Shown: positions 13,660 through 62,727 of the stretch, one piece after another
Position numbering within the stretch: position 1 is the first letter of the stretch
Layout: each line of letters starts with the position of its first letter
Origin: Thelephora terrestris
Taxonomy: Eukaryota; Basidiomycota; Agaricomycetes; Thelephorales; Thelephoraceae
Length of the DNA: 64,000 bases
NCBI GenBank assembly: GCA_015956445.1
Contig: WIUZ02000007.1
Location: 1,798,001-1,862,000, forward strand
Direction of reading: 5' to 3'
The notes under the pieces: model-generated
The model's database searches: none
The model's input: the letters and a program-made list of their open reading frames with translations, nothing else
What the model was told of the DNA's origin: nothing
Program-made: the position numbers and the translations under genes

Positions 13660-15135
13660 TCAAACTTTGTAAGCAATAATCGCCAACAAAATAAAACATG
13701 CAAATGTAAGGGCAAGAGGAAGGCTGTCCACGATGTAGACCACGGTTTCTTTAGAGACCAGAAAGCCTGCGAGTGAGAGAAGTTCTCCTGAGGGGATGGA
13801 GGAGATGGAGGAAGAGGGAGGGGAGGTGTCAGGGCCACTCTACCCCAACAACTACCAGTGCACTGAGCCGACTCCGCAGAGTACTCACTAGTCCAACTAG
13901 CTTGTGAGAGAACGGTCACGTCTCTATTCTTCCGGTAGGTTGTCCGAGGTCACTGCAAGTCAGGTCGAAATCCTAAAGAGAAACCCAACCTAAACCGTAC
14001 TTCGTTCGGTTTAACACACAAGGGTTTATCCCTACAACAGGATTGATGACTCCACCAGTTGATCGACTGGACGCTCGAGGTGTTCTAATATGAACGCGGA
14101 GGTTCTATAGTTATGAGGCGCAGTTGACGCACAGAGCGGGAGGGAGAGCAGATGGGGATGTCTTGGATCAAACAAGAAACTCTGACTTGGCCTTAACTGC
14201 AACTGGGCTGAGAAGGGCAGAGGATTTCCTGAGGTAACAAAACTAAGGTACTACGATACAGCCACAGTTGCTACTTATACTAAAGGAGTGGCCATGACGT
14301 CAATACCCTAATATACCCTTATCAAGTCCGAACAAAGGGAGATAAGGAGTGCGAGAACGCTAAGTAAGGGAAGCAAACAAATATGACGCGTGGGAGAATA
14401 AAGGACAAAGGGCCTTACTAGCGTGTGAAGGATTGCATAAAAGATAACGAATGTCCGCATGAAACATAGGGATAAAGATAACACTAGTCTTTAAAAGAAA
14501 AGGGGGGGGCATGGGATCATGAAAGTTCGTACCTGGGGATCACACCCAAGGGTCAGGTGGAAGCGTCTCATTGCTTCGTGCAATTTTCGAGCGGCTCCGA
14601 TGACTGGGACCATACAGCTTCCCTTGTTGTCTGTAGGCGGTAACAGCATCACGGACTAGTGGCAACCTCAACGTACGTCCGAACATGAGGAGGTTGGGCC
14701 TAGACTCATGGGACATGAGGGATTACAGATTTGCCGGCGTTTCATGCTAACAGCTACTCCACATTCGCTTGGCTAAACAAAAGGAGTCTAAGGCACTCCT
14801 TCCGAATAACAGAGATTCCTTCCTCCGGTTAGGAGACTGTGATGTGACTGTCCACGTGTGTGATCAGGGTCCAGGGTTGATCGTAATCGTAAAGTCATGA
14901 GGGGTCGTAAAAGGAGTTCGTAATGTCATAAAGGGGTCATCAGGGTCTTGAGACCTATTTTTAGTGCGCGCGCGTTCTAGGCGTTCCGGAACGAAGTTCT
15001 TCCAAGGCCGTCCCGCGGGCCGAGGTGTCAGCTTGATGCAGTAAGCCAACGATGATGGTACAGGGGCGGAAGTTGATGTGACCCGGACCAATGAGGTTCG
15101 TCGAGGTAGGTCACGTGAAGGATCACCGATCTAGG

Positions 15136-15145
15136 CTATAAGAAG
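15136..15145 (+). promoter_or_regulatory. TATA-like box of the TG-A gene
   Basis: CTATAAGAAG lies about 65 nt upstream of the TG-A start codon (15210). The same box precedes the ATG in copies b (about 28075) and d (60229). Conservation and spacing suggest the core promoter. Confidence 0.6.
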
Positions 15146-15209
15146 GACGTCTTCTTGGAGCCATCCTTGATCAGCAACACCAGCAACTTCCCCATCATCT
15201 TACCACAAC

Positions 15210-17316
15210 ATGTCCTTCCCCAACAACCATACCTACAAAGTCGCCAACGGCATCTCCACCATCTCCCGTATTGACCGTCGTGCCGCCGCTCGCAAGACCT
15301 ATGCCTGTGTGGCGGGGACTCCCTATACCACGGATGATCAGGTATGGGGGAGACCTAGAGCTTTGTGTGCTAGCACTAACGCCTTCCTCTAGGTAGAGGT
15401 TACGTTCTTTTGGGCGTTGATGTCCAGCTAACGGCTTCTAGATCTTGGAGGTCATCACGGAGGTGGACACTGAACGTCTCAGGGAGACGATGCCTCATTT
15501 GATGGGGTTGACCTGGGACGATGAGCTCTGGGTTCGTACCATAATTGCAGAGAAGGTGGCCTTCCAGATGCGGGGTAGGTTCAGAGAGCTGGAGCATCCG
15601 ATCAAAAAGGAGCTCTGGTACACCCTGCAGAGGGGGATCTACGATCAGGACCTGTTGGAGCACGGAGCGACTGTTCCTCGGGCTGTCAGCCATGCCACTG
15701 CTTCCACTAGTCTCTTGTGGTCGCTCGTTCGGGAAGGGGAGAGTCGGGTAAGTTCTCTGTTTGAATATTCGAGTATGACTCTCGACTAATCAAACTGCCT
15801 AGGTTGAACGATTGGAGAGGGAGGTGAAAGAGGCAAAGGCAGACGTCCTTCGTTTGTCAGCGGAGGGTCTTCAGATGAAGGAGACCTTGGCCGCTTTTCA
15901 GCAGGGAACAAACGATGCATTGGAGGCAATGGTCGCCAACCATCAGGAGTTGATCGCCGGGTTGAAGGTTCGGGATAACAACATCAAGGGTGCTTTGGCC
16001 AGGAGGGATGAAAAGGTTCCTTCAGCCTTTGCAGGTTTATGCAATGACTGAAAGATTTCTTCTAGACTGAAGAACTCGAAAAAGTGGTGGCCGTATTGAC
16101 GGCGCAGGTTGAGTCCTTACAGGACAAGACCTGCAACTGCAAGGAGGTGCCAGTGTTGGTTGGTCAGGGGACTGCCGACGTTCCGTTCGAGTTGGAGTAC
16201 GCCGACGAGGTGGTACTCCCATCTCCTAACCCGTCGTCCTATGCGACGCCTCCGATCGAGAACTCGGTACCCGTCCCGACTCCGGCTCCGGCTTCTACCT
16301 TGGCCGCTTCCAACAAGGAGAACTGTGGGCACTGCGTCCTGCAGCTGATCCATCAGTTGGTGAAGATTGAAGATGAGGTCATGGAGGTTGACCGAGCTGA
16401 AGATGCTCCGAGGGTCGCCGAGGTACGTCCGGTGACTAAGGGGCAACGATGCAAACGCTCTCGACGCCGTCCCGCCCATCGTATGACCGCGTCGGCTAAT
16501 CCTTACCCTCGACCAGTTGAGTCGGATGGTGACCAGTCTGGTCGAGGTGAGGAGCGAGGATTCCGATATCGGGTCCACCGTCCTTACCGACAGGTCGAGT
16601 CCGAGATCCAACTCCGACACCAGCTTCGCCTCACAAGACAGGATCCCACCCAGGGGTCCGATCACTGGGGGCAAGGGCACCTGGAATCGGTGATTACATC
16701 TTGATTACATGGTGAGTTCATGTGCACTTTTCAATGATTGTAATCGCCGATTCCAGGTTGATTACATTTCAAATGTTACCTTGACATGCAATCCAGCCAA
16801 TGTCCACCATTTACATTTGGAATGTTCTCTACAAATGTTTCTGGGATGTTCTTTACCTGTCGGCAAAAATGATACTGCAATGTAGTCAACATGTTCTTCA
16901 ATCATCTGAGATGTAATCTAAATGTGCTCAAAAACATGAGATGTTTTCACAATGTGCCCAGTGGGCACATTCAGGAAACATTGCTTGGGAACATTTTGAG
17001 GAAATTTCAAATGGAGTTGGTGGGCACAGTTGAATTACATGTCAAGGTAACATTTAAAATGTAATCAACCTGGAATCAGCGATTACAATCATTGAAAAGT
17101 GCACATGAACTCACCATGTAATCGGGATGTAATCACCGATTCCAGGTGCCCCTGCCCCCAGTGGATGAGGGAGACGGAGGGTCGCTCGTCGACTACGTTG
17201 ATAGTGCTACCGAGCAGTCACCCGGTAATGGAGATGTGGGACCAGGTGTTCCGCAGTTCTGTGACATCTGGGAGGCTGATCAGTCCGCTCGAAGGCATCT
17301 CTTCCTATCGGCTTGA
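15210..17316 (+). pseudogene. TG-A coiled-coil protein gene, copy a, broken by a MITE
   Basis: Four exons: 15210-15341 (132 nt), 15442-15747 (306), 15803-16015 (213), and 16066-16662 plus 17167-17316 (597+150=747), with GT-AG introns. Translation without the MITE gives 465 aa. Exon 1 starts MSFPNNHTYKVANG. Exon 2 has LTWDDELWVRTII and KKELWYTLQRGIYD. Exon 3 is a heptad-rich coiled coil (LEREVKEAKADVLRLSAEG). Exon 4 continues the coil to QDKTCNC, then an acidic/Pro-rich region (FELEYADEVVLPSPNP, EDEVMEVDRAED), a basic patch (KRSRRRPAHR) and an acidic tail ending LFLSA. As it stands, the MITE inserts a stop at about 16702. No known domain is recognised. Matching exon lengths in copies b and d argue for a genuine protein-coding gene. 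Confidence 0.75.
16663..17163. mobile_element. CACTG MITE 1 (501 bp) in TG-A copy a
   Basis: Terminal inverted repeats are CACTGGGGGCA...TGCCCCCAGTG, extending well beyond 100 bp (GGAATCGGTGATTACATC and its complement). The 3-bp duplication GAT flanks it (16660-16662, 17164-17166). CACTG ends with a 3-bp duplication fit the CACTA/EnSpm (CMC) superfamily, non-autonomous. It interrupts exon 4 of the TG-A gene. Copies of identical 501-bp length lie at 55004 and 61548. Confidence 0.88.
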
Positions 17317-18175
17317 ACTAGTCGTTCAGCTGAGTGCCGAAGATGGTGACGCCATGTTTGGGGAGGTCCTAGCGAGGAGGGGCCAGCACTACGATCTCCG
17401 GGATGGACAGTTGATGACCTTTAGGCCTGCCGTAAATAGAGTCGATTTCTGATGGGATGATGATAGCACCGTATATAGCTCGTGGTGGATTCGCTGGGAA
17501 TAGTATGCGCGTGTGTGTGTTTTGAATGATTGGTGTGAAGGATAAGGAGTGTGAAGTATTCAAACATAAGAAAGGATAAGAAGAGTTCGAAGAAAGAGCG
17601 TGTTATAAAAAGTTTAAAAATACCATGTTCCTGACAGGAGGGAGGGGGGTTGGGGATGGGAGAAGCTGGTCGTCTGGTGTGTGTTTCCTTAAGTAGCTTT
17701 TCGATCAAGTTCTCTGGGAAAACATTGACAACATGGATGGGAACCCTAGGGTTCTTCCGCTTCTTGATGGCTGCGAGGCAGCAGTCGTGGCAAGGGCCTG
17801 GAACAGGGTTGGTGATGGGATCAGCGATAGGGTGGTCAGGTGGTGGGGTCTTTGGACTGTAAGATAGCCCGCTCCGTTCTGATTGGATTGGCTGATTTGG
17901 ATGTTGATGGTTGGGGATGACCCTGGGAGCATGCCTGATCGGAGGACGGACCGTGCGAGAAGAGTGTTGGGGTGGTGCTGATCGATGGGGTGGGGCGGTA
18001 GAGGGTTGTGATGATCTGTATGGATCGTCTCGGTAGCTCGTCCACCATTGGGTGTTGTTGATTGGCATGTTGCGTCCCATGTTCTGGACGATTTCTGTGA
18101 TTGGTGTGAAGTCCGTTGTCGAGTTGGCTGAGGTTGTAGTGAAGAGGTCTATAAGAACTCTTACTAGTCCTTCTT

Positions 18176-22400: not shown

Positions 22401-23875
22401 CGTAGGCCTAGGTTTTGGACTGTCTGGAGCTTCTTAATGAGGGTCTTCTTGGGATGATGGGGGTTGTACCATAGTTGGGAACCGTAGGTAATGACTGGGA
22501 TGACACATGTTTTGAAGAGTAGACGTAGGTGTTCCTGGTTGATTCCTGTGATGGTGTTGCCTAGACAGGAAAGGCCAGAGATGATGTTCTTCCCTTTTTT
22601 GCAGATTATATCGGTGTGATCCTTGAAGGAAAGTTTCCTATCCAGGTAAAAGCCAAGCCATCGGATGTATTTGGGCGGTGTGATGGTGATAGGTTTCCCT
22701 TCAAGGACTGCTGACAGGGAGGGTGAAGAATTGTGCTTCTGACGCCAAGAAAAGTGCATGAGGTCTGATTTGTCGGGATCGATGTGCTTACCCAATGAGT
22801 GGAAGAGGGCTTCGGCCTTTTCCAACGTGGCTCTGAGGGTGATGATGTTTTCTTCCAATGAGTCGGATATGGCGAGGAAGCCCACATCGTTGACGTATGA
22901 TCGAGGGGCAACAGGGAGGCCAGAGGAGGAGAGGATGGGGTGGATATCATCTTCTTGTGATTCACATGGTTGAAGAAGCCTTTGATGTCGATCGCCAGGA
23001 AAGAAGAGACAAGACCTTGTTGTCTTCCGGTGTGGATGTCGTGTATGAGGGAGAGGCCCGCGTCTAGGCAAGATGCGTTTGATCTTCCACCGAATTGGTT
23101 GAATGGCATGAGGTCGAATTTCCCAGAGTCGAATAAGAGTCTTTTGGTGACAATCTTCTCGACCAATTTCCCAAGGCATTCAATAAGTTGGATGGGGCGG
23201 TGAGAATGTAGGGCTGATGGGTCTCTCTTGGGCTTGGGGATAGCTACTACTAAGGAACATTTCCATCTGGGGTGGTGGATCCCTAATTGGACAGATGCTT
23301 TGATGATGCTGTTCAGTTTGTCAGGCTGGCATGAATGGGCCCATTTGAGTGCTTTGTATCCTAAACCGGAAATCCCAGGTGCGGACATGTTGGAGAGATT
23401 TTTGAAAGCGAGTCTGATCTCTTGCTCTGTCACTGGGAGGAAGGGGCAGGATGGAGCCGGATTCAGGAGAGGAGGTTCTGTGTCTGGGTTGTCCCTGGTG
23501 GGTTCAGAGAGGGGAAACCACGTGTTCGCAAGAAGCTCAGCCTTGTCTTTGGAGTTCGTCGCCCAATAGCCATTATGGTCTTTTAGAGCAGGGGTTAGGG
23601 TTTTCCGTTGACCTCGGTACCAGGAATTGAGTCTCCATAGGTTGGTGGTGGTGGTGACTTCGGAGGCATATTTCATCGCATGTGATCTCTTGGATTTCTT
23701 GATCTGGTACTTGAGTTGTTTGTCTGTAATCTTTGCTCTGAGGAAATTGTGGGGAGAGGGTTGTGACCTCGCTTTGTCTCGAGTTTTCTGGGCAGTGTGA
23801 AGGGCGGATTTAGCTTCCTTGTCAAACCACTTGGCTGTCCTTGGGGACTTCGGCTTCCTTATGCAGGTTGTTTTC
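19432..23875 (-). pseudogene. Dead LINE retrotransposon (RT-RNase H, Tad1/I-like), 5' truncated
   Basis: On the minus strand: the RT fingers/palm region (SAPGISGLGYKALKWAH, PKPKRDPSALHSHRPIQLI, IDIKGFFNHVNHKKM), then YVNDVGFLAI where the usual active site is Y-x-D-D, a thumb region, and an RNase H domain (TIFTDGSRLPNK, MYSDNSSAISV, WTPSHGGSTGMNIAD). Between NHVNHKKM and HPILSS about 50 residues that normally include the PQGSPLSP motif are missing. RNase H has TGA at 20463-20465. The element is also split by a palindromic CACTG element (20690-21933). The low-coordinate end has ATTAGAT/GATAA repeats typical of a LINE tail. The high-coordinate end stops against a TG-B element at about 23875. Confidence 0.8.
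20690..21933. mobile_element. CACTG foldback element P0 (1244 bp palindrome) in the LINE
   Basis: Ends are CACTGGGGGCAGGGG...CCCTGCCCCCAGTG with the 3-bp duplication TCT (20687-20689, 21934-21936). The two arms of about 0.6 kb are near-perfect inverted copies around a short loop near 21300-21325. Its outer ends match the 501-bp MITEs, but the interior, made of repeated GTTTACTGA/TCAGTAAAC words, is different. It is non-coding and inserted between the RT and RNase H parts of the LINE. Confidence 0.88.
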
Positions 23876-24208
23876 GAGGATTAGCGGAAGGATGAGGGGT
23901 GTCAGGTCGAGTCTTAAAGGGAGTACCGGGTGTAGAAACAAGAGGAGGGGGGATATCAAGCGAGAGTGGTGACTCTGTTTGATAGGGGTGGACTGGCGAG
24001 TGGTAGTCTTGGCAGAACTGACTCAGTTGCTGCACAAAAGGTTCGAAGTCTTGGTCGCTGAGACGTTCGAAGTTGACGAGATACTCTATAACTGAATAAG
24101 GTAATTCAGTTAGTATATCCCACCAAAGAACTATGATAGCGGGGGAGTGGGTGTGAACGTTAGTGGTAAGATGGATGCGTGGGTTAGGGAAGTAAAAGGC
24201 TGGACTTA

Positions 24209-26627
24209 TGTGATGATTTCGCCATTTAACCCCCTTTTATTTCCTTTATTTAACGCCTCATCACCACTAAGTCAGTTGGTGCCCTGCCCTAAACACGGCG
24301 GTAAACTGTTTATTATGCAGTATGCCCTATGCTTAACGACTCAAAGTCCAATACGTGGAACGTGCTACTAGTCAAGATACCCCAGAAGACCCGAGGTATA
24401 ATACGTGAACATGTACCGGCGGACCTTCCTATGAAGATCCCCCCTACCTGGCCCTCCGTTGCCCCTGGACGACTAGTAGATATTCAGGCTACCAACAACA
24501 AGGGATGTATTAATAAGCGTCGCGCGCTGACCTCTCGCAGAAGTCAACCGGCTTATTAATCTGACCCTTGGATTGGACTTATGAAAACCATTATGCTTTA
24601 CGACTCATGGATCACGCGCAATAGACAAAATAGAAAGAAGATTCATTGGAAGCCAACAGTACAAAAGAGTTATCTAATCAATATCTCTTCGGATCCTTTG
24701 TACTACTTTCAATGCCAATCTCACCAACTCCTCGTTCAACCAGTTCTGCTCCCGGATCTCATTCGGGTCCACGTCCGACAAGTCATCGTAATCTGGAAGC
24801 TCCGTATCAGAGTTTGGTTCACTATCGGGAACGAACTCGGCGTACGGATCATACTCCAGAGCAGGCCATTGATGGCGACTACCCCAAGGAGTAGAAACGA
24901 ACTCAGGACGAGGAGTGTCCCTACGGACAACTCCTACGTTCTGATAGAATTCGTCGCTCCCGATCTCAATGACCTCATCGTCGATGGGAACCAACCTGTT
25001 CTCGTGACGGACCAACAAACGAGCGGGCGGCGACTCAGCCCGGTTAGGGATGATCGGCGACCCGGCCCGATAAGGAACCTCCAACTCCTCTTCTTCAACT
25101 CGGACCTCCGGCTCGTTGCACTTCCTCTGAAGATCCCGGACTTCTCCAGTCAACTCGGAGACACGACGAGTAAGGCGGACCTAAAAGGAACAGGGTTAGA
25201 AGATGACAACTATCTTCGATCCCAGTCCCAGTACCTTATCGTCCTCCAACTCTCCGGTCTTAGTAACCAAAGCCCGGACCAAGTCCTTAAGAGTGGTCAC
25301 CTCTCCCTAAAGGAAATGTTGGGTTAGAAAAGTCAATTATCTCCCGACCCCACATTTACCTTTAGCAAATCAATATCGGCCCCCTGTCGAACAACACTAT
25401 CCTCCTGTCCATGAATAACTCCCTGCATATCCTCCTTCCAATTCTCCAAGGCTTCTATCTCCTCGCGACGACCATCAACTCGCTCATTAACATGAGCAAT
25501 CTCATCCATCAACATGGACCCAACGTTACCCGTATGGATAACGCTGGCCTCCAACACCGAGTTGAAGGTCTCATTAGTCTCTGTGACGAACTCGACACCC
25601 CTGTTAAGGAGTTCGGTTGCATAAGGGTTCGTCTCGATACGCGCCAACTTGCGCCGAGACACCCTGCGAGAAGCCTGGATGAAATCCCTAAATCCTAAAG
25701 CGGAACGTCAGCAGACATGCTAAATATGTCAACCGGCATCCCGAACCTAAGTCGGTGAAACCCTCATTAGGGTCGGCGGTAGCGGTCCGGTCCATGACGT
25801 TTCCCAAAGTGGGATAGGGACGGGAGGCATCACAACGAGCGTGAGAGAAACGGTCGATGTTAAAATTGTTCTCCTGAACAGGAGAGTAGGAAGTAGAGCG
25901 GCGGGTGGGAACACGAGTTTGAGCACGAGGCATGTTGGCTGTGTATAACAAAGGTGGGTTTGTTGGAAGACCAGTCATCCAACCCCCTTTAGTTATATAC
26001 CAAATGCCACGCCCCTTCCACGACTCAGGAGTTGAGTCATCATTTCTATTGTTTACTGCGCACGACCCACATGACATCATATGCCCCTATTTCTTAGTCA
26101 TATGCTCCCCTTTTGCCATTGGCTGTTAGTCAGTCATACCCACATTCCTTCCGAACATTCCCAGGCTACGTCATGCTTTGTAACTGCTTTGTAATGCTCT
26201 CAAATTGCTATTGGCCGCCACACTTTCGTTTATCAGCTGATAATTTGTAGCATTAGTCACCACGTAACGCACAGACCATGCAGTGCTGCGCACGGACCAT
26301 GTTTGTCTGTGTTTGTATCTTTAGGGTAGTTACATGTCACTGTCACATCACAAATCTAAGTAGTATATATACTCAGAGTAGTTTAGCCTGTACTCCTTAG
26401 ATTTGTTATCATCAGACTCTCCGTGACCTCTATTGCTGTGTGCTTAGAGCAAGAGTGCCTGAAGACCCTTGTCTCCTTCTTTCTCCTTTCTTCCAATCTA
26501 GTCTGTGAAGAGACTTCCGATATCCCTGGGTTTGCAACAGGGTTATAACTGTGTGTTTGATCCTTGTGTGCGATAGGTTTGGATAGCAAGAGTGCTATTG
26601 AACTGTAGAGGTCGCGTCGGCCTGACA
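24209..26627 (-). mobile_element. TG-C element copy a, complete (2419 bp)
   Basis: In its own orientation (minus here) the element begins TGTCAGGCCGACGCG and ends CGAAATCATCACA. It is flanked by the 5-bp duplication ACTTA (24204-24208 and 26628-26632) and inserted in the minus gene of TG-B copy x. A second copy starts at 63336. It holds one four-exon gene. No transposase is seen. Confidence 0.82.
24674..25933 (-). CDS. TG-C coiled-coil protein (366 aa, four exons), apparently intact
   Basis: Exons: 25933-25747 (187 nt), 25694-25360 (335), 25306-25235 (72) and 25180-24674 (507), joined by GT-AG introns into 1101 nt (366 aa). A TATA-like sequence (TATATAAC) lies about 70 nt upstream. The N-terminus MPRAQTRVPTRRSTSY is basic. 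Exons 2-4 form a long coiled coil (LNRGVEFVTETNETFNSVLE; REEIEALENWKEDMQ; LTRRVSELTGEVRDLQRKCN). An acidic tail follows (IDDEVIEIGSDEF, EFVPDSEPNSDTELPDYDD). The coil end LxxxVxxLTxxVxxLQxKCN and the later DDEVxEI block parallel the TG-A protein (LTAQVESLQDKTCN; EDEVMEVD), so the genes are probably distant homologues. Function unknown. It is the only uninterrupted TG-C gene in the window. Confidence 0.72.
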
Positions 26628-48132: not shown

Positions 48133-49063
48133 TGTCAGGGCCACTCTTCGCCCTTCAGGTACCAGTGCTGTTGGTGAGTCGCAGCTCCAACCAACAAGAA
48201 ACAATGGGGCAAAGGGGGAACGACTTCCCTATATCCACCCAAAGTCTACGTGATCCAAAACGCGATGGACGAGCGTTCTCCGGTAGGTTGTCCGAATTCA
48301 CAGCAGGAGTGCCGAGCCTCTATCAGGTAAATCCCTATCGTCTTCTGAGGGCAGATACAAGAGCCCGAGGATGGCGCCTCAAACTGACGACTTGATCCAA
48401 AGAGCAGTGCGGAACTCGATGTCATGTCCGAGCTCGCTTCAAACACCGGTTAAGGATCAAGACTGAGTGAGAGAGGAGAGCGAACGGTTCAAGGAGTTAC
48501 TCGATAAGCTCTTCAGTGGCCTACAGCAAATACACCGATGCTGCAAGGAGAAGAGGACTTCCCAAGATATCAAAGATGGGGAGTCCTCAGCTACTCTACT
48601 GGTACCTATATAGAAGAGTGGCCGGGACATAGATAACCCTATCTAATAATAACTCGGAGCAAAGAAGGGCCGAGAGTAAGCATGAACAGTAAGCGGCCCG
48701 GAGTATAGAATTGAAATGATAAAAGAATGACTAATGGGTCAGGGTTCGTGAGAGAATAAGAAGGGGGTCATGACGTCATGTGGGAAAGGAATGACAAAGG
48801 ATAATATCACATGCAAGGACGAACCAATGAGAGGACGACGCGTCAGCTCGTTTGATCGGGACAACAAAGACCGAGTGGGGCTTGAATGTCGAGGGTGAAT
48901 GTATGATGAGTCTGGACCGGGGAAACGGTGGGCCGAGCCAATGGCGAATAGGGCGCGAGCGCTGTCGATGGTCGAATAAAGCGTAGTGCGAACCGGCCGT
49001 TGGATCCATCAAACTCCCTTCTTCCCCGAATCAACAACCTCACCAACCAACTACTCATCCACT

Positions 49064-50743: not shown

Positions 50744-51066
50744 CGAGAATGCCTCGGAGGGGACGGAGGAGGAGGTTGCCAGTGCTGAGGAGTACTGGCA
50801 GACCAGGTCTTGACGACTAGGGTTTGTACACCTTAGTCCTCGTCCATAGAGTCCGGGCAGATTCAACTCCGTCGGTTTGGTAGTCTTGTGTCTTCGCTGC
50901 GCGCCGCGTGTAATATCATCAGTGTCCTTGTCTGTGTTCCTTGATGACGTGTGAGTCGTGATAAGGGAAGTGGTAAGGTAAGAAAAGGGGTATGGGTAAG
51001 GAAAGTGGGCGAAAGTTGGGTGTGAAAATGGTTTAAAAAAAGGGAATAAAATTCAGCACGCTGACA
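50744..51066 (+). other. 3' noncoding end of TG-D
   Basis: Probable 3' untranslated region and terminus. An overlapping open frame (50322-50813) crosses the stop of the main gene. The A-rich GGTTTAAAAAAAGGG near 51030 resembles the TAAAAAGTTTAAAAATACC block before the TG-A end. Confidence 0.45.
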
Positions 51067-51331: not shown

Positions 51332-52221
51332 TGTCAGGGCCACTCTACCCCAACAACTACCAGTGCACTGAGCCGACTCCGCAGAGTACTCACTAGTCCA
51401 ACTAGCTTGTGAGAGAATGATCACGTCTCTATTCTTCCGGTAGGTTATCTGAGGTCACTACAAGTCAGGTCGAAATCCTAAAGAGAAACCCAACCTAAAC
51501 CGTACTTCGTTCGGTTTAACACACAAGGGTTTATCTCTACAACAGGATTGATGACTCCACCAGGTGATCGACTGGACGCTCGAGGTGTTCTAATGTGAAC
51601 GCTGGGGTTCTATAGTTACGAGGCGCAGTTGACGCGCAGAGCGGGAGGGAGAGCAGATGGGGGATGTCTTGGATCAAACAAGAAACTCTGACTTGTCCTT
51701 AACTGCAACTGGGCTGAGAAGGGCAGAGGATTTCCTGAGGTAACAAAACTAAGGTACTACGATACAGCCACAGTTGCTACTTATACTAAAGGAGTGGCCA
51801 TGACGTCAATACCCTAATATACCCTTATCAAGTCCAGAACAAAGGGAGATAAGGAGTGTGAGAACGCTAAGTAAGGGAAGTGAACAAATATGACGCGTGG
51901 GAGAATAAAGGACAAAGGGCCTTACTAGCGTGTGAAGGATTGCATAAAAGATAAGAAATGTCCGCATGAAACATAGGGGTAAAGATAACACTGGTCCTAA
52001 AAGAAATAGGGGCATGGGTCATGAAAGTTTGTACCTGGATCTAGACCACACCCAAGGGTCAGGTGAGCCCGTCTCGTGGCTTCTGCGATTGGCCAGAGAT
52101 CACGAGGACTCTACACATCCCTTGTTGTCGGTAGGTGGTATGATACCAATGGACAGGCAGTAACCTGGGAGTTGCAGCCGTAATCGCTTGATCAGACCCA
52201 GTCTTGATTAGGCATAGCACC
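51332..52221 (+). mobile_element. TG-A element copy c, 5' part only
   Basis: The TGTCAGGGCCACTC start and noncoding 5' region match copy d closely up to GGCATAGCACC, where TG-B copy v is inserted. The coding part is not found after that insertion, so it is truncated by deletion or rearrangement. Confidence 0.78.
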
Positions 52222-52627
52222 TGTCAGGGTTGTGGGCCTGCTTACTGTTTGGGGAGCGCTAGAGGATTAGCGGAAGGGTGAGGGGTGTCAGGTCGGATCT
52301 TGAACGGAGTTCCGGGTGTGGAAACGAGAGGAGGAGGGATATCAAGCGAGAGTGGTGACTTGGTTTGATAAGGGTGAACAGGTGAGTGATAGTCTTGACA
52401 GAACTGACTCAGTTGCTGTACGAAAGGTTCAAAGTCTTGGTCGCTGAGACATTCGAAGTTAACGAGATATTCTATAACAGAATAAGGTAGTTCAGTTGGG
52501 ATTTCCCACCAGAGAACAATAATAGCAGGGGAGTGAGTGTGGACGTTAGTGGTAAGATGGATGCGCGGATTGGGAAAATAGAAGGCTGGGCTTATGCTAA
52601 AATAGACTGTCAGGGTTGTAGGCCTGC

Positions 52628-53251
52628 TTACTGTTTGTGGGGCGCTAGAGGATTAGCGGATGGATGGGGGGTGTCGGGTCTTACTCGAAAGGGAGTTCCG
52701 GGCGTAGAGACGAGAGGAGGAGGGATATCAAGAGAGAGAGGTGACTCTGTCTGATATGGGTGGACGGGCGAGTGGTAGTCTTGGCAAAACTGATTAAGTT
52801 GCTGCACAAAAGGTTCAAAGTCTTGGTCGCTAAGGTGTTTGAAGTTGACGAGATATTCTATAACTGAATAAGGTAATTCAGTTGGAATTTCCCACCAGAG
52901 AACGATAATAGCAGGGGAATGAGTGTGGATGTTAGTGGTGAGATGGACACGTGGGGAAGGGAAGTAAAAGGCTGGACTGATACTGAAGTAAACGGTAGCA
53001 AGAACACTCTCTGTAAGATCTGAATTCCAGAGGAATTGATGATCCGCTCCTAGGAGGAATGGAGGAGTGGTGAATCCGGCGTCGAGAGCTGCAAAGGGAC
53101 GGTAATAAGGGAAGTGGGTGAGTAAACCTGCTGTTCGGTTTACTTGGAGACTTCTGATGAGTTTATACTCCCAGATAGATCTTCTGACGTCCGGGACGTT
53201 TGGTCGTAGGACTGGACTAGTAGAGGGGAAAGGATTTGGGGAACTAAACAT
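52628..53251 (-). CDS. TG-B minus-strand protein (207 aa, intronless), copy w
   Basis: Same length and layout as 28460-29083, with scattered conservative changes (for example NVPDVRRSIWEYK for PDARRSIWEYK). The frame is open throughout and ends 20 nt inside the element. A minus-strand TATA-like GGGTATATAAGG lies near 53396-53407, about 150 nt upstream. Confidence 0.72.
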   Translation of the reverse strand: MFSSPNPFPSTSPVLRPNVPDVRRSIWEYKLIRSLQVNRTAGLLTHFPYYRPFAALDAGFTTPPFLLGADHQFLWNSDLTESVLATVYFSISPAFYFPSPRVHLTTNIHTHSPAIIVLWWEIPTELPYSVIEYLVNFKHLSDQDFEPFVQQLNQFCQDYHSPVHPYQTESPLSLDIPPPLVSTPGTPFRVRPDTPHPSANPLAPHKQ

Positions 53252-53844
53252 ACACTAGCAGGAGAATTCCTGCTTGAATGAGTTAGAGAGAGTAAGACGT
53301 GAGGAGAATTCCTCAGCTTACTTTGTTTATTCAAGTTGTGGGTAGAGGAGTACAGAAGAGATTGAGAATGGGGAAAAGAAGGAGCGAACGCTCTTCCTTA
53401 TATACCCAATCCTCTACAGGAGTCATTATTCTACAACGAGTCAAACAGGAGTCAACATGGTCTGTGCGTAGTTTAGGGTAGGGTAGATGAGTCAGAGAGA
53501 GGGGACTTAGAATGACGGATGGTAATTACTAATACGGGAACAGTAGAGGCGCGAGTCAATGGAAGCATTCGGGGATTTCTCGTGTTTCATGGTAGTAATA
53601 GAAGTGTGGTGGGGATTTCCCATGATCGATGGGGATTTCTCTGAGTTGATGGGATTGCGATTGGGGCTGAGGGTTCGTTTCTCCTAATGGGGACGTTAAT
53701 GGATAATAGGTTATTGTTTTCCCCTTTTGGTTTCTTTTGAGTCAGGATGTATTTAAGTCAGAGGGGTTAATGGTCGTTCCCCCATCGTCTCTTATCCACT
53801 CTCACCAACCAACCACTACTCTCTCCCAAACATATATCACCACC

Positions 53845-54747
53845 ATGTCTGCTTTCATTGCCAGCAACGCCGTACTTAATGCTGCCGCCACCCCCTTTAC
53901 TCCATCCTTTGAGACAGATGCTCCCTACGATGTGGAGCAACACTTGTACGACACCCCCGCCAACATCGCCCATGACAATCAGGTGGCGGTAAATTTCCTG
54001 ACCGCTCACAACGCTCCTGCCGAATTCTGGGAACAGGCCGGGTACGAAGATCCCCGACTTGCTAGGCCTCAGGTTGAGGCTAGACATCCCGGAGCCGTCC
54101 TTCTGTTGGACGCCATGGAGAGAGAGCGGGAGGATCGGATTGCGAAGTTGGAGAAGCGTGTGGACCTCATGTATGTCATCATGAATAGTTTGAATGATGA
54201 CTTCTCTCACTTCGCTTTGGAACATTGGGGACCTTTCCAGGCATCTCTCTTCTGATATTTCGGACACCAATGCCATGGGGCTTATTGCACCGACCCCCCT
54301 TGCAAGTCCCCAGTCATCCCTTCGCCACCGCCAGGATCAGGGCGTTCCTCTCCCTCCATCCCCTCCCTGGAGTCCTGCCCCAGTTCGCCAGATGGTGAAG
54401 AGGTCCCAGAGGAAGAAGAACCGGAAGAGTCCGATGACTCGTTCTGGTCAACGCTGTCGTCCCTCCGACAAGTCACGTCAGGTTCGGATGAAGTTGAAGG
54501 TAGAAGTGGCGGGTCTCCAAGACCGCTATGGTTTGCCTTAGTGAGCGCCACCCTGTCGGACGTAAAACGGGAGATGCATGATAGTTTGTATCATGATGTG
54601 TTGGGGTGTAGGGAGTGTTGGCAAGATCCGGTAACCCGGGCATATTCGTATTGCCCCCAGAGCGTTCACAACCCTCATCACTTTGCTCATCGTTGCCCGA
54701 TGGCTCAGGATTGTGCTTGTGATGTAGACCCCTTTGTTCTTGTTTAG
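53845..54747 (+). pseudogene. TG-B plus-strand protein gene, copy w, one nonsense change
   Basis: Exons 53845-54481 (637 nt) and 54542-54747 (206 nt) match copy y in length. TGA at 54253-54255 replaces CGA (Arg of LFRYFGH in copy y), cutting the protein before both Cys clusters. The sequence after the stop is still in frame and conserved, including GCRECWQDP, SYCPQSVHNPHHFAHRCP and CACDVDPF, so the change is recent. Confidence 0.72.
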
Positions 54748-55003
54748 TTTTATAGTGTGTTTTAACTGCCTTTGTATTACTACGATGAATAAGACCAATG
54801 TCTTTAATTATCTGTGTGATTTTGGACACTATGTCACGCGTTCGTGACATAGACCATCGCTAAGACACTTTCAGTGATGTCAGGGTTCCAAAGGAACTGG
54901 TGATCCGCGCCCAATAAGAACGGAGGAGTGGTGGTTCCGGCGTTGAGGGCAGCAAAGGGACGGTAGTAAGGGAAGTGGGTGAGTAAACCGGCAGTACGGT
55001 TTA

Positions 55004-55504
55004 CACTGGGGGCAGGGGCACCTGGAATCAGTGATTACATCTTGATCACATGGTGAGCTCATGTGCACTTTTCAATGATTGTAATTGCCGATTCCAGGTT
55101 GATTACATTTCAAATGTTACCTTGACATGTAATTCAACTGTGCCCACCAACTCCATCTGAAATTTCCTCAAAATGTTCCCAAGCAATGTTTCCTGAATGT
55201 GCCCACTGGGCACATTGTGAAAACATCTCATGTTTTTGAGCACATTTAGATTACATCTCGGACGATTGAAGAACATTTTGATTACATTGCAGTATCATTT
55301 TTGCCGACAGGTAAAAAACATCCCAGAAACATTTGTAGAGAACATTTCAAATGTAATGGGTGGACATTGGCTGGATTACATGTCAAGGTAACATTTGAAA
55401 TGTAATCAACCTGGAATCGGCGATTACAATCATTGAAAAGTGCACATGAACTCACCATGTAATCAAGATGTAATCACTGATTCCAGGTGCCCTTGCCCCC
55501 AGTG
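55004..55504. mobile_element. CACTG MITE 2 (501 bp) in TG-B copy v
   Basis: Same termini as MITE 1, in the opposite internal orientation. The 3-bp duplication is TTA (55001-55003, 55505-55507). It interrupts the minus gene of TG-B copy v. Confidence 0.88.
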
Positions 55505-56301
55505 TTAATTGAAGACTTCTGATGAGTTTATACTCCCAGATAGATCTCCTGGCGTCAGGGACAAGTGGTCGTTGAACTGGGCTAGTGGAAGGAAAAGGGT
55601 CGGGGGCACTGAACATACACTGGCAGGAGGATTCCTGCAAGAATGAGTCAGAAAAAAGTAGAACGTGAGGAGAATTCCTCAGCTTACTTTGTTTATTCAA
55701 ATTGTGGGTAGAGGAGTACAGAAGAGATTGAGAATGGGGGAAAGAAAGGAGCGAACGCTCTTCCTTATATACCCAATCCTCTACAGGAATCATTATTCTA
55801 CAATGAACCAAATAGGGACCAACATGGTCTGTGCGTAGTTTAGGGCAGGGTAGCTGAGTCAGAGGAGTGGGACTTTAGAATAGCGAATGACAAAACGAAA
55901 TCGGGGAACAATAGCGAACGAGTCATTTAGGAGTACAATGGGGATTTCTCACGTTTCATGGTGGTACTAGAAGGCTAGTGGGGATTTCCCATGATTGATG
56001 GGGATTTCCCTCGTTTCATGGTAGCAATAGAAGACTGATGGGGATTTCTCGTGATCGATGGGGATTTCTCAGGATTTGATGGGGATTTCTCAGGATTTGA
56101 TGGGATCACGATTGGGGCTGAGGGTTCGTTTTCCCTAATCGGGATTTCAATGAGTGGTGGTTCGTTGTTTTCCCTTTTCAGTTTCCTATTGACTGGGTTG
56201 TATATAATCTAGGGGAGTTATTGGTCTTTTCCTCTCATCGTCTCTTTTCCCTTCCCACCAACACCACTAAACCTCTCCTCTCAAATCACTCTTCTGCTAC
56301 A

Positions 56302-56835
56302 ATGTCTGCTTACGCTGCCAACAATGCTTTGCTCAACGCTGCGGCGACCCCCTTCGACTTCTCCCCGTCCTTTGAGACGGATGCTCCTTTCGACGTGGAG
56401 CAACACTTGTACGATACTCCTGCCAACATTGCTCATGACAACCAAGTGGCCGTGGACTTCTTGACAGCTCACAATGCTCCTGCTGAATTCTGGGAGCAAG
56501 CTGGGTATGAGGACCCCAACAAGACTCGACGATGGGCTCCTGGGGTTACTCCCATGCAGGATGCGATGGAACAAGAGAGGGAGGATAGGATCCTGAAGTT
56601 GGAGAAGAGGATGGATGTCATGTATGTCGTCGTTAACAGTCTCAACGAGGACTTTTCTCACTTTGCTCTGGAACATTGGAAACCTTTCCAGGAATCTCTC
56701 CTCCGGTATTTCGGCCATCGATGCAACGGAGCGTACTGCACCGACGCAGCTCCTCACTCCCCCGTCGTCCATCCGCTACCTTCACGATCAGGGAGTTCCC
56801 CTTCCCCAATCCCCTCCTTGGAGTCCTGTTCTGCT
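56302..56835 (+). pseudogene. TG-B plus-strand gene, copy v, 3' truncated
   Basis: Reads MSAYAANNALLNAAATPFDF, HLYDTPANIAHDNQVAVDFL, the coil, the first Cys region (HRCNGAYCTD, with the third Cys missing) and SLESC, then runs into unrelated CT-rich sequence. The C-terminal Cys/His exon is lost. The TATA-like GTATATAATC is near 56203. Confidence 0.72.
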
Positions 56836-56879
56836 GACATGCCTCCATTCTCTGGAGTACTCGTTGGCAACATTCCCTA

Positions 56880-57300: not shown

Positions 57301-57329
57301 TCATGAGCCCCTTCAGCTATCTTTTCTCC

Positions 57330-58901
57330 ATGGGTCATGGACCATACATCGTGACAATTCTCCATGGGTCATGGGCCATGCAACGTTGTACAACGCGTTG
57401 TACAACCCATGACCCATGGAGAAAAGATACCATTGTACAACCCATGACCCATGGGTAATGGAATAGTATACGTTGCCCATGCCCCATGGGTTGTACAACA
57501 CTATCCCTTCCCCATGCCTCATGGGTTGTACAATGCTATCCTTTCCCCATGGGGCATGGGTTGTACAACACTATCCAATTTCCATGCCCCATGGGTTGTA
57601 CAACGCTATCTGTTCCCCATGGGTCATGGGTTGTACAACGCTATCCATTCTCCATGGGGCATGGGTTGTACAACACTATCCATTTCCCATGCCCCATGGG
57701 TTGTACAACGCTATCCGTTCCCCATGGGTCATGGGTTGTACAACGCTATCTGTTCCCCATGGGTCATGGGTTGTACAACGCTATCCTTTCTCCATGGGGC
57801 ATGGGTTGTACAACACTATCTGCTCCCCATGGGGCATGGGTTGTACAATGCTATCCATTTCCCATGGGTCATGGGTTGTACAACACTATCCATTTCCCAT
57901 GCCCCATGGGTTGTACAACGCTATCTGTTCCCCATGGGGCATGGATTGTACAACGCTATCCGTTCCCCATGCCTCATGGGTTGTACAATGCTATCCGTTC
58001 CCCATGGGTCATGGGTTGTACAACACTATCAGTTCCCCATGGGTCATGGGTTGTACAACGCTATCCTTTCTCCATGGGGCATGGGTTGTACAACACTATC
58101 CATTTCCCATGCCCCATGGGTTGTACAACACTATCCGTTTCCCATGGGGCATGGGTTGTACAACACTACCCATTCTCCATGCCCCATGGGTTGTACAACG
58201 CTATCCATTCCCCATGGGGCATGGGTTGTACAACACTATCCATTTCCCATGCCCCATGGGTTGTACAACGCTATCTGTTCCCCATGCCCCATGGGTTGTA
58301 CAACACTATCCTTTCCCCATGGGGCATGGGTTGTACAACACTACCCATTCTCCATGCCCCATGGGTTGTACAACACTATCTGCTCCCCATGGGTCATGGG
58401 TTGTACAACACTATCCATTCTCCATGCCCCATGGGTTGTACAACACTATCCGATTCCCATGCCCCATGGGTTGTACAACACTATCTATTTCCCATGCCCC
58501 ATGGGTTGTACAACGCTATCCGATTCCCATGCCCCATGGGTTGTACAACACTATCCAATTCCCATGCCCCATGGGTTGTACAACACTATCTATTTCCCAT
58601 GCCCCATGGGTTGTACAACGCTATCCGATTCCCATGCCTCATGGGTTGTACAACACTATCCATTTCCCATGCCCCATGGGTTGTACAACACTATCCATTC
58701 CCCATGGGGCATGGGTTGTACAACACTATCTGTTTCCCATGGGGCATGGGTTGTACAACACTATCCAATTCCCATGCCCCATGGGTTGTACAACACTATC
58801 CATTTCCCATGCCCCATGGGTTGTACAACACTATCCATTCCCCATGGGGCATGGGTTGTACAACACTACCCATTCTCCATGCCCCATGGGTTGTACAACA
58901 C
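57330..58901 (+). repeat. 35-bp minisatellite (CATGGGTTGTACAAC)
   Basis: About 40 units of 35 bp, core CATGGGTTGTACAACACTATC followed by a variable CCATGCCCC / CCATGGGGC / CCATGGGTC block. The first units (57330-57465) are in the opposite orientation, giving a head-to-head start. It continues after TG-A copy d at 62728. All three forward frames are open, which is a property of the unit, not evidence of a gene. Confidence 0.88.
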
Positions 58902-60302
58902 TGTCAGGGCCACTCTACCCCAACAACTACCAGTGCACTGAGCCGACTCCGCAGAGTACTCACTAGTCCAACTAGCTTGTGAGAGAACGATCACGTCTCT
59001 ATTCTTCCGGTAGGTTGTCCGAGGTCACTACAAGTCAGGTCGAAATCCTAAAGAGAAACCCAACCTAAACCGCACTTCGTTCGGTTTAACAAGCAAGGGT
59101 TGATCCCTACGACAGGATTTGATGACTCCACCAGTTGATCGACTGGACGCTCGAGGTGTTTTAATATGACTGCAGAGAGTCTATAATTACGAGGCGCAGT
59201 TGACGCGCAGAGCGGGAGGGAGAGCAGATGGGGATGTCTTGGATCAAACAAGAAACTCTGACTTGTCCTTAACTGCAACTGGGCTGAGAAGGGCAGAGGA
59301 TTTCCTGAGGTAACAAAACTAAGGTACTACGATACAGCCACAGTTGCTACTTATACTAAAGGAGTGGCCATGACGTCAATACCCTAATATACCCTTATCA
59401 AGTTCAGAACAAAGGGAGATAAGGAGTGTGAGAACGCTAAGTAAGGGAAGCGAACAAATATGACGCGTGGGAGAATAAAGGACAAAGGGCCTTACTAGCG
59501 TGTGAAGGATTGCATAAAAGATAACGAATGTCCGCATGAAACATAAGGGTAAAGATAACACTAGTCCTAAAAGAAATAGGGGCATGGGTCATGAAAGTTC
59601 GTACCTGAATCCAGACCACACCCAAGGGTCAGGTGAGTCCGTCTCGTGGCTTCTGCGATTGGCCAGAGATATCGAAGACTCTACACATCCCTTGTTGTCT
59701 GTAGGTGGTATGGTACCAACGGATGGGCAGTAACCTGGGAGTTGCAACCGTAATCGCTTGATCAGACCCAGTCTTGATTAGGCATAGCACCTGGGAATAT
59801 CGTTCTTCCTAAGTGGCACCAGGGATTATATTCTTCGGCCGCTGTTCTCGGCTCGGGCCTACTCTGCTTCCAAAGCACAACTAGATCAGATAGGGTTACT
59901 ATCCGATTAGAAGCACAGTGTCCAAATGTTGATACCCCGTGCCCACGTGTGTGTTCCAGGGTCCAGGGTTGTTCGTAATCGTCAAGTCATGAGGGGTCGT
60001 AAAAAGGGGTTCGTGATGTCATAAAGGGGTCATCAGGGTCTTGAGACCTATTTTTAGTGCGTGCGCGTTCTAGGCGTTCCGGAACGAAGTTCTTCCAAGG
60101 CCGTCCCGCGGGCCGAGGTGTCAGCTTGATGTAGTAAGCCGACAATGATGGTACAGGGGCGGAAGTTGATGTGACCCGGACCAATGAGGTTCGTCGAGGT
60201 AGGTCACGTGAAGGATCACCGATCTAGGCTATAAGAAGGACGTCTTCTTGGAGCCATCCTTGATCAGCAACACCAGCAACTTCCCCATCATCTTACCAAA
60301 AC

Positions 60303-62408
60303 ATGTCCTTCCCCAACAACCATACCTACAAAGTCGCCAATGGCATCTCCACCATCTCTCGCATTGACCGTCGTGCCGCCGCCCGCAAATCCTACGCTTG
60401 TGCCGCGGGAACTCCCTATACCACAGATGACCAGGTATGGGGGAGACCTAGAGCTTAGTATGTTCGCACTAACGCCTTCCTCTAGGTAGAGGAACGTTCT
60501 TTTGGCGTTGATGTCAAACTAACGGCTTCTAGATCTTAGAGGTCGTCACGGAAGTGGACGCCGAACGTCTCAGGGAGACGATGCCTCACTTGATGGGGTT
60601 GACCTGGGATGATGAGCTCTGGGTCCGTACGATCATCGCCGAGAAGGTAGCCTTCCGAATGAGGGGTAGGTTCGGGGAGCTGGAGCATCCGATCAAGAAG
60701 GAGCTCTGGTACACCCTGCAGAGGGGAATCTACGATCAGGACCTATTGGAGCACGGAGCGACCGTTCCTCGGGCCGTCTGCCATGCCACTGCTGCTACGT
60801 CGTTATTGTGGTCGCTCGTTCGGGAGGGGGAGAGCAAGGTAGGTTCTCCGTTTGAATATTCGAGTATGACTCTCGACTAATCAAACTGCCTAGGTTGAGC
60901 GTTTGGAGCGCGAGGTGAAGGAGGCGAAGGCAGACGTCCTTCGTTTGTCAGCAGAGGGTCTTCAATTGAAGGAGACCTTGGCTGCCTTCCAGCAAGGGAC
61001 GAACGAGGCGTTGGAGGCAATGGTCGCCAACCATCAAGAGTTGATCGCCGGGTTGAAGGTTAGGGATAACAACATTAAGGGGGCATTGGCCAGGAGGGAT
61101 GAAAAGGTAATGCTGCTTTCATCATTGCTTAGAATGATGGAAGCTGACATTTCCTAGACCGAGGAACTCGAGAACGTGGTGGCCGTGTTGACAGCGCAGG
61201 TCGAGTCCTTGCAGGACAAGACCTGTAATTGCAAGGAGGGTCCCAAATTGGTTGGTCAGGGGACAGCCGATGTTCCGTTCGAGTTGGAGTACGCCGACGA
61301 GGTGGTACTCCCATCGCCTAACCCTTCGTCCTATGCGACGCCTCCGATCGAGAACTCGGTTCCCGTTCCGACTCCGGCTCCGGCTTCCACCTTGGCCGCT
61401 TCCGACAAGGAGAACTGTGGGCGCTGCGCCTTGCAACCGATCCATCGGTTGGTGAAGATCGAGGATGAGGTCATGGAGGTTGACCGAGCTGAAGATGCTC
61501 CGAGGGTCGCCGAGGTACGTCCGGTGACTAAGGGGCAACGTTGCAAACACTGGGGGCAGGGGCACCTGGAATCGGTGATTACATCTTGATTACATGGTGA
61601 GTTCATGTGCACTTTTCAATGATTGTAATCGCCAATTCCAGGTTGATTACATTTCAAATGTTACCTTGACATGTAATCCAACCAATGTCCACCAATTCCA
61701 TTTGAAATGTTCTCAATAAATGTTTCTGGGATGTTTTTGACCTGTCGGCAAAAATAATACTGCAATGTAATCAGCATGTTCTTCAATCGTCCGGGATGTA
61801 ATCTAAATGCGCTCAAAAACATGAGATGTTTTCACAATGTACCCACTGGGCACATTCAGGAAACATTGCTTGGGAACATCTTGAGGAAATTTCAAATGGA
61901 GCTGGTGGCAACAGTTGGATTACATGTCAAGGTAACATTTGAAATGTAATCAACCTGGAATCGGTGATTACAATTATTGAAAAGTGCACATGAACTCACC
62001 ATGTAATCAAGATGTAATCACTGATTCCAGGTGCCCCTGCCCCCAGTGAAACGCTCTCGACGCCGTCCTGCTCATCGCATGGCTCCATCGGCTAATCCCT
62101 ATCCTCGTCCAGTCGAGTCGGATGGTGACCAGTCTGGTCGAGGTGGGGGACGAGAGTTCCGCTATCGGGTCAACCGTTCCTACCGACAAGTCGAGTCGGA
62201 GATCCAGCTTCGCCACCAGCTTCGACTCGCAAGACAGGATTCCGCCCAGGGGTCCAATGAGGGAGACGGAGGATCGCTTGCCGACTATGTCGACAGTACT
62301 GTCGAGCAGTCACCCGGTGATGGAGATGTGGGACCAGGTGTTCAGCAGTTCGGTGACATCTGGGAGGCTGATCGGTCCGCTCGAAGGCATCTCTTCCTAT
62401 CGGCTTGA
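60303..62408 (+). pseudogene. TG-A coiled-coil protein gene, copy d, broken by a MITE
   Basis: Exons 60303-60434 (132 nt), 60533-60838 (306), 60894-61106 (213), and 61158-61547 plus 62052-62408 (390+357=747). Without the MITE and one AAA duplicate, the frame codes for 465 aa, aligned end to end with copies a and b. The MITE lies after GQRCK, in the basic patch, a different point of exon 4 from the MITE in copy a. Confidence 0.78.
61548..62048. mobile_element. CACTG MITE 3 (501 bp) in TG-A copy d
   Basis: CACTGGGGGCAGGGG...CCCCTGCCCCCAGTG, with the 3-bp duplication AAA (61545-61547, 62049-62051). Same length and orientation as MITE 1. Confidence 0.88.
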
Positions 62409-62727
62409 ACTAGTCGTTCAGCTGAGTGCCGAAGATGGTGACGCCATGTTCGGGGAGGTCCTAGCGAGGAGGGGCCAGCACTTCGATCTCCGGGATGGAA
62501 GGGTGATGACCATGAGGCCTGCCGTAGATAGAGTCGACTTTTGATAGACTTGGGTAGCACTTGTATAGCTCGTTGTGGATTCGCTGGGAATAGTACGCGC
62601 GTGTGTGTGTTTCGAATGATTGGTGTGAAGGATAAAGAATGTGAAGCATTCAACACATAAGAATTGGTAAGAAGAGTTCGAAGAAAGAGCGTGTTATAAA
62701 AAGTTTAAAAATACCATGTTCCTGACA

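Follow-up and report, generated by a model that had tools for sequence, protein, structure and literature searches.

What kind of mobile element begins with TG, ends with CA, makes 5-bp duplications and carries genes of its own? The question is raised by a stretch of 64,000 nucleotides from the basidiomycete Thelephora terrestris (contig WIUZ02000007.1 of assembly GCA_015956445.1, positions 1,798,001 to 1,862,000; hereafter the window), in which four families of such elements, here called A to D, lie nested. An earlier note, made from the letters of the window alone, had left two answers standing: giant solo long terminal repeats (LTRs) that host genes, or non-autonomous elements of an integrase-type transposon. 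For family A the answer is clear: it is the LTR of a Tf1-like chromodomain Ty3 retrotransposon, and it carries, antisense to gag-pol, a spliced gene under purifying selection.

In the 40.6 Mb searched (60 contigs, with the window at C58:1798001-1862000), two 3,300-bp copies of A at C56:2015667-2028263 stand in the same orientation, with 0 differences between them, on either side of 5,997 bp, and an outer duplication, GGCAG, encloses the whole. The inner frames match the Pfam families zf-CCHC, aspartic protease, RVT_1, reverse transcriptase (RT) RNase H, Integrase_H2C2, rve, SH3_Tf2-1 and Chromo in Ty3 order and run antisense to the gene in the LTR, and the purine tract AGGAAGAGGATAA precedes the 3' LTR. 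The gag family match is below the Pfam cut-off and its CCHC match above it; one stop separates the protease and RT frames of this copy. Moreover, A adjoins pol in the same relation at C23:1046625, C4:77518 and C1:551469, that is, at all four loci fetched (C56 included) out of eight grouped by score and frame length among 90 pol loci; the inner flank TTATCCTCTTCC recurs at all four, and other A flanks differ. Two of the eight grouped loci are 9,310 bp apart, compared with 9,297 bp expected for one LTR plus the inner region. A search for same-orientation copies flanking a gag-pol, proposed in the earlier note, thus succeeds for A at C56. Because A pairs around or adjoins a chromovirus gag-pol at four loci, it is an LTR, and copies of A that stand alone between 5-bp duplications are solo LTRs; their LTR identity is observed, and we infer that LTR-LTR recombination left those in the window. 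Full-length A is rare, with eight pol loci of its group against 464 first-look end candidates.

In the window, the families were resolved by self-comparison together with a genome search for element ends. The letters A to D were assigned to them here; only letters had been given before, and the fourth family named then is most likely 48133-51066 (D). The TGTCAGG start is indeed enriched, with 29 occurrences against 10.75 +/- 3.43 expected and none of 100 shuffles reaching 29, and all six of the 5-bp duplications read previously (GGAGG, AATGG, AACAC, ATTTG, TAGAC and ACTTA) are exact. The copies, with target-site duplications (TSDs) and insertions of a miniature inverted-repeat transposable element (MITE), are as follows.

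13827-17636, plus strand (gene orientation; gag-pol sense would be minus): family A solo LTR, copy 1, TSD GGAGG, split by a 501-bp MITE at 16663-17163.
23876-37738, plus strand: older B copy hosting C and A, in pieces 23876-24208, 26628-26769 and 36699-37738.
24209-26627, minus strand: family C element of 2,419 bp, TSD ACTTA, inside the older B copy.
26770-36698, plus strand: family A solo LTR, TSD AATGG, sitting in the older B copy and split by the nested B at 28440-35060.
28440-35060, plus strand: family B element, 2,370 bp in two parts (28440-29250 and 33502-35060), TSD ATTTG, with a palindromic insertion at 29251-33501.
48133-51066, plus strand: family D element, inserted in the RNase H of a copia element.
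51332-52221, plus strand: 5' part of a family A LTR, cut by the diverged B copy.
52222-56840 (end approximate), plus strand: diverged B copy, in pieces 52222-52607, 54850-55003 and 55505 to about 56840, with a MITE at 55004-55504.
52608-54849, plus strand: family B element, TSD TAGAC, nested in the diverged B copy.
58902-62727, plus strand: family A solo LTR, TSD AACAC, within a 35-bp minisatellite and holding a MITE at 61548-62048.
63336-64000, plus strand: second family C copy, extending past the window end.

Four of these insertions (A in B, C in B, B in A and B in the diverged B) have a related uninterrupted target inside the window, and the minisatellite that the A copy at 58902 interrupts continues beyond that copy. 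The flanks of the D copy differ (left GCGCT, right GTGAT) and show no matching duplication; a D copy on C12 has the TSD TTGTT. Genome-wide, first-look candidates numbered 464 and 447 for the A left and right ends, 356 and 302 for the B left and right ends and 325 for C, of which the best 40 per search were scored. Among rows listed regardless of their flanks, exact duplications were found in 9 of 13 for A (the other four being three LTRs of full-length elements and one unexplained), in 4 of 5 for B (the exception is a false pairing of two different copies) and in the only row for C; longer interrupted copies (two A, three B and one C) entered the list only because their flanks matched.

The anatomy of the A LTR places the gene. 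A run of 12 nt from the third base of the inner region is the complement of LTR sequence at position 2882 (gag-pol sense), a site 34 nt behind a TATAA; 3 of 1000 shuffled 40-nt stretches give a match of that length. The gag-pol RNA probably starts near this position and primes its own reverse transcription. With a start there, U3 would be about 2.88 kb and R-U5 0.42 kb, and the antisense gene would lie wholly in U3. In gene orientation the gene occupies LTR positions 1377 to about 3117, inside the LTR rather than in the inner region between pol and the 3' LTR, and has its own TATAA 73 nt before the ATG. It is spliced, and the C56 copy reads 465 amino acids (aa) over four exons; the codon pattern reveals a further conserved frame behind the first stop, and the true C-terminus is therefore longer or alternative. 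Since the gene is inside the LTR, each element has two of them and a solo LTR keeps one. The genes of the four families in the window are these.

15210-16662, plus strand: gene of A copy 1, exons 15210-15341, 15442-15747, 15803-16015 and 16066-16662, cut by the MITE and resuming at 17164; exon borders were set by eye and by likeness to the C56 copy.
49064-50041, plus strand: D gene, homolog of the A gene, exons 49064-49198, 49251-49580 and 49632-49898, with exon 4 starting from 49951.
25933-24674, minus strand: C gene, 366 aa with a coiled coil, exons 25933-25747, 25694-25360, 25306-25235 and 25180-24674.
28460-29083, minus strand: B gene 1, 207 aa, under strong purifying selection.
34052-34955, plus strand: B gene 2, a frame at 34052-34789 followed by a second conserved frame at 34401-34955 (splice or frame switch).

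These genes are real, since they are under purifying selection, and the conserved proteins reported earlier are borne out in all four families. For A, short or overlapping pieces were discarded, which left 76 of 92, most of them from the copies with the highest scores. Nonsynonymous relative to synonymous changes in exons 1-3 (37 copies) stand at 0.10 of expectation for changes common to at least three copies and at 0.49 for singletons; the corresponding values in exon 4 (16 copies) are 0.19 for shared changes and 0.43 for singletons. Codon-position periodicity tracks the predicted exons, and 26 of 37 copies (exons 1-3) and 11 of 16 (exon 4) are without a net frameshift or stop. Two D copies differ in exon 1 by 14 synonymous and 0 nonsynonymous changes, with ratios of nonsynonymous to synonymous rates (dN/dS) of 0.057 in exon 2 and 0.031 in exon 3, and the C gene compared with one other copy gives 0.128, 0.043, 0 and 0.126 by exon. 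For B gene 1, 13 copies or pieces compared with the window copy give dN/dS of 0.015-0.066, with 157/67/836 differences by codon position and 12 of the 13 free of stops, and differ from it at about 35-69% of synonymous sites. Shared changes there are 0.064 of expectation and singletons 0.229, and the two wrong frames give 1.9-4.6. Across the genome 141 of 150 scored copies of B gene 1 are without a stop and nine have one or two, a count taken on the best 150 of 414 first-look candidates and thus favouring intact copies. The first frame of B gene 2 gives dN/dS of 0.15-0.29 in all but two of its 15 rows; the two exceptions, which are shorter, stand at 0.48 and 0.70.

Divergence along C is uneven: between the copy at 24209-26627 and one other (L051), the outer parts differ by a few per cent and exons 1 and 2 at about 45% of synonymous sites, a mosaic that suggests recombination between lineages.

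Family D parallels A. Its gene is homologous to that of A: hhalign aligns 241 columns at 37% identity with a probability of 99.4% (E 3.3e-21), the intron positions coincide, and the exon-2 residues L-T-x-D-D-E-L-W and G-I-Y-D are common to both. At C12:1333105 a pol H2C2 domain is followed, about 1.46 kb from its start, by D in reverse (94.7% over 685 bp). Ahead of D come a frame recognised by eye as a chromodomain and the purine-rich stretch AGAAGGAGGATCC, and the D gene is antisense to pol. At this one junction, seen on the 3' side, D is the 3' LTR-like neighbour of a sister chromovirus pol, in the same relation as A. Homologous genes in the LTRs of two chromovirus families suggest that the arrangement is old. 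An A-like gene is also found at a further Ty3 locus (L065), antisense to and downstream of pol. Its exon 2 (33 codons) has 16 synonymous and 0 nonsynonymous changes, and dN/dS is 0.10 in exon 3 and 0.16 in exon 4. At two other loci, L050 (C59:696272-698800) and L073 (C2:1520300-1521400), another Ty3 family seems by eye to have a sense-strand gene with a K-T-L-R-R-S start downstream of pol, and further Ty3 families may carry extra 3'-end genes.

The proteins belong to no family that we could recognise. None of the A, B, C and D proteins has a Pfam match above cut-off, and the weak matches of A and C are mostly to coiled-coil families; the A protein is coiled-coil-like in part, as are those of D and C. 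The PDB holds no match for the B gene 1 or D protein; for B gene 2 it gives just four, all weak, the best of which spans 32 residues at E 0.01. The profile searches suggested by the earlier note, against Pfam and a structure database, therefore leave the proteins as unplaced as it had found them. Nor do NCBIfam and PHROGs match the B proteins, and B gene 1 has no relative in the viral or prokaryote contigs searched. The A/D and C proteins give a weak profile match (63.5%, E 6.8e-5), from which we do not claim homology because it covers coiled coil and acidic sequence, and the B proteins match neither A, C nor gag by profile. No integrase or transposase Pfam match, of the sort that would mark a Ginger-like DDE transposon, was found in the B, C and D genes searched, and the units themselves are without an RT, integrase or transposase match, in keeping with the absence of a visible transposase remarked on before. 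Two stretches of the A protein, one basic and one an acidic-flanked V-x-E-V, are reminiscent of nuclear localisation and SUMO-binding motifs.

From these observations we build the following model, which we think has a good probability of being right as a whole: A is a 3.3-kb chromovirus LTR with a gene, its window copies are solo LTRs, D is alike, B and C are likely of the same kind, and the best candidate role for the product is that of a nuclear accessory factor. The gag-pol RNA would start near LTR position 2882 and prime its own reverse transcription, and the opposite strand of the 2.9-kb U3 would hold a whole spliced gene, equipped with a TATA box of its own. LTR-LTR recombination would then remove gag-pol and leave the solo LTR which, having a complete gene and TATA box inside U3, can remain a free-standing gene (its anatomy is observed, its expression inferred). 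The gene product would be a nuclear factor that aids the element encoding it, perhaps by promoting nuclear entry or tethering or by countering silencing. This last part is tentative, drawn by analogy with gene23, brtn and HBZ (see below), and we regard it as possible rather than probable. Candidate copies number in the hundreds and selection has nonetheless been kept, which suggests that the protein to some degree prefers the element from which it is made.

The proposal of giant solo LTRs is borne out for A, paired around gag-pol, and for D by its one pol junction. No gag-pol flanked by B or C was found, and for these two families the other answer of the earlier note, non-autonomous elements of an integrase-type transposon, may still hold. 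B carries two divergent genes, and TATA-like boxes lie 66-151 nt before the ATG of both, as of the C gene. The most likely reading of B and C is that they, too, are LTRs of the kind seen in A and D, or non-autonomous relatives derived from such LTRs. Several results weigh against the model, most of them at this point. Reads of pol flanks, pair scans and flank grouping found no gag-pol partner for B or C, and no B or C end occurs in the 1.1 kb downstream of 18 other pol loci (4 of the 18 are still in open frame at the far end). Among the 150 scored copies of B gene 1, 27 same-strand pairs lie within 3-20 kb and five of them enclose an integrase or copia RT match; among same-strand pairs of B right ends within the same distance, taken from 100 listed of 171 exact right ends, 1 of 19 encloses a pol match. 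The pol-enclosing pairs have no common spacing (4.4, 13.5, 13.7, 18.1 and 18.9 kb); one copy of the C23 pair has its own duplication, one of the C13 pair lies directly against a truncated copia RT, and the pairs on C11 and C17 are known by spacing only. The flank groups (15 B-left, 13 B-right and 9 C-left) are all distinct bar one segmental duplication. Were B an LTR, its gene 1 would be on the gag-pol strand near the U5 end, an odd site for an LTR gene. Elsewhere in the model, D has no TATA-like box within 140 nt of its ATG, and the self-priming match in A is of a length that 3 of 1000 shuffles attain, at a transcript start that is itself predicted.

Individual candidates for a partner were set aside. 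The B copy adjoining pol at C59:1193451 has its own duplication and is an insertion, and two equal C copies on C59, 40.8 kb apart, share their flanks and belong to a duplicated segment rather than to an LTR pair. A stretch like the palindrome at 38249-42323 intervenes between the pol at C16:618613 and its neighbouring C, which we read as nested; the B downstream of pol at C59:692426 has a gene of a different Ty3 family behind it and is read as an insertion. A B copy on C16 (L052) precedes a gag-like frame by 1.4 kb and is oriented as a 5' LTR would be; we read it as an insertion because part of the intervening sequence recurs without B (L044). A purine-tract pattern search beside the B ends gave four places each (controls 4 and 0); 4 of the 8 were read and showed no pol, one of them having a gag-like frame 1.4 kb away.

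Could B and C, and possibly A and D where they stand solo, instead be self-standing elements that consist of genes between integrase-type ends, are moved in trans by retrotransposon machinery and encode proteins that act in cis? Nested insertions set aside, the B copies read are units of 2.2-2.4 kb with exact 5-bp duplications, no pol partner for B and C was found in the searches above, and B gene 1 is free of stops in 141 of 150 scored copies in spite of the synonymous divergence given above, although the choice of the best 150 of 414 candidates favours intact ones. Its singletons, too, are biased to synonymous changes (0.229 of expectation): B copies look young, with few nonsynonymous singletons, yet belong to many synonymously distant lineages, a combination not easily expected of relics of a lost element, and one that keeps this explanation alive. 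However, the ends of A and D are of the same type and both families adjoin pol as LTRs, and since full-length A is also rare, the lack of full-length B is no proof against LTR status and may reflect loss. Moreover, we know of no way for a single LTR-like unit to be copied without a primer binding site (PBS) and a polypurine tract. On balance we judge gene-only elements unlikely. Should they exist after all, and against our expectation, B and C would be a new kind of mobile element, units of 2.3-2.4 kb with retroviral-type ends and hundreds of candidate copies, spreading under strong selection on the proteins they encode but with no polymerase, integrase or transposase of their own, and A and D would have the same kind of gene built into chromovirus LTRs.

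Two further explanations keep the LTRs and reinterpret the genes. The introns of the A, C and D genes and the TATA-like boxes of A, B and C (none was seen for D) are unlike gag-pol and would suit captured host genes, or genes now serving the host. The searches of Pfam (all families), the PDB (B gene 1 and D), NCBIfam and PHROGs (B) gave no match (in Pfam, none above cut-off), hundreds of nested repetitive candidate copies are unlike a host gene, and the homology of A and D, which agree in intron positions, in their ends and in how they stand to pol, suggests that the gene has long resided in LTRs; we find a host origin or role improbable. Alternatively, only antisense RNA would matter, for self-silencing or copy control, with the open frames incidental. 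The gene is antisense to the U3 of the gag-pol transcription unit, and a regulatory role of antisense transcripts has been discussed for other retrotransposons (PMC7264820). Constraint in A, B, C and D is codon-specific, however, and is lost in the other two frames of B gene 1 (1.9-4.6), which leaves this idea with very little credit.

The rest of the window holds further repeats. A 4.07-kb AT-rich palindrome at 38249-42323, with arms 99.1% identical over their whole length, is a fold-back element or an assembly artefact; an A copy on C1 contains its outer parts again, joined as a palindrome of 1.16 kb (L031 2195-3356). The insertion in the B copy at 29251-33501 is a second near-complete palindrome, of 4.25 kb (about 97% in matched parts). 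The 501-bp MITE, which we take to resemble CACTA/EnSpm elements, is present three times (16663-17163, 55004-55504 and 61548-62048), with inverted ends of about 177 bp CACTGGGGGC and the 3-bp duplications GAT, TTA and AAA; two of the three copies are in A LTRs, at different places. The remaining features are listed below.

4677-7021 and 7565-9890: direct repeat of about 2.3 kb, 69% identity.
22606-23676: reverse transcriptase fragment with an RVT_1 match, LINE-like (long interspersed nuclear element) by eye.
31163-31222 and 63208-63263: short CCTAA-type telomere-like repeats, chromosome-internal, the former inside the palindrome at 29251-33501.
43528-48132: copia element with gag, integrase and RVT_2 matches, its RNase H interrupted by D (frame read by eye).
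57316-58905 and 62728-62971: 35-bp minisatellite, split by the A copy.

A word search of a fungal LTR survey finds none of the terms 'long LTR', 'LTR length' and 'antisense' (PMC3248453). LTRs usually count as regulatory DNA, seldom searched for genes, and solo LTRs as inert remnants. In the present case entire spliced genes lie in LTRs and outlast the gag-pol part, and expression of a selected protein from a solo LTR is conceivable. Conserved genes may thus escape notice where repeats are masked. In the open-licence literature, covered mostly at the level of titles and abstracts, no conserved gene inside the LTR of such an element is described, which fits the view that genes inside LTRs have not been described so far; the earlier note's impression of something undescribed holds for the LTR location within that literature.

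How does the arrangement compare with known systems? In vertebrate retroviruses, sag of mouse mammary tumour virus is an LTR-coded protein and HBZ of human T-cell leukaemia virus 1 (HTLV-1) an antisense product started in the 3' LTR, and we liken them to the A gene by arrangement, not sequence; sag is in sense, and the HBZ coding sequence is mainly outside the LTR. Tf1 LTRs measure a few hundred bp, and the family A LTR, at 3.3 kb and with a gene, is unlike those of Tf1, Tf2 and Tj1. The likeness to these elements lies in the chromodomain, SH3_Tf2-1 and a candidate PBS complementary to the predicted mRNA 5' end, such complementarity being the basis of self-priming in Tf1 and Tj1 (PMC4600332). 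Rice Retrosat2, RIRE3 and RIRE8 have LTRs of about 3 kb or more, TGTCA...TGACA ends (RIRE8 and Retrosat2) and an extra open reading frame (ORF); that of Retrosat2, ORF0, is upstream of the gag-pol ORF and, in the available part of the source, not described as LTR-resident (PMC3485330).

The closest parallels are the antisense accessory ORFs of maize Grande (gene23), rice RIRE2, Silene Retand (ORF4/TRP28) and Botrytis Boty (brtn), to which antisense transcription in HTLV (PMC7264820) and HBZ (PMC11963269) may be added. Like the A gene, they are conserved genes antisense to gag-pol, with their own promoter in some, no assigned function and some nuclear products (PMC7264820, PMC11963269), and nuclear entry, tethering or escape from silencing has been proposed as the role of those in Grande, Retand and Boty. 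Among the LTR proteins none matches TRP28 or SMC in Pfam. Unlike these genes, which are found between pol and the 3' LTR, the A gene is inside the LTR, in U3, and the A/D system is suited to asking why retrotransposons keep antisense accessory genes.

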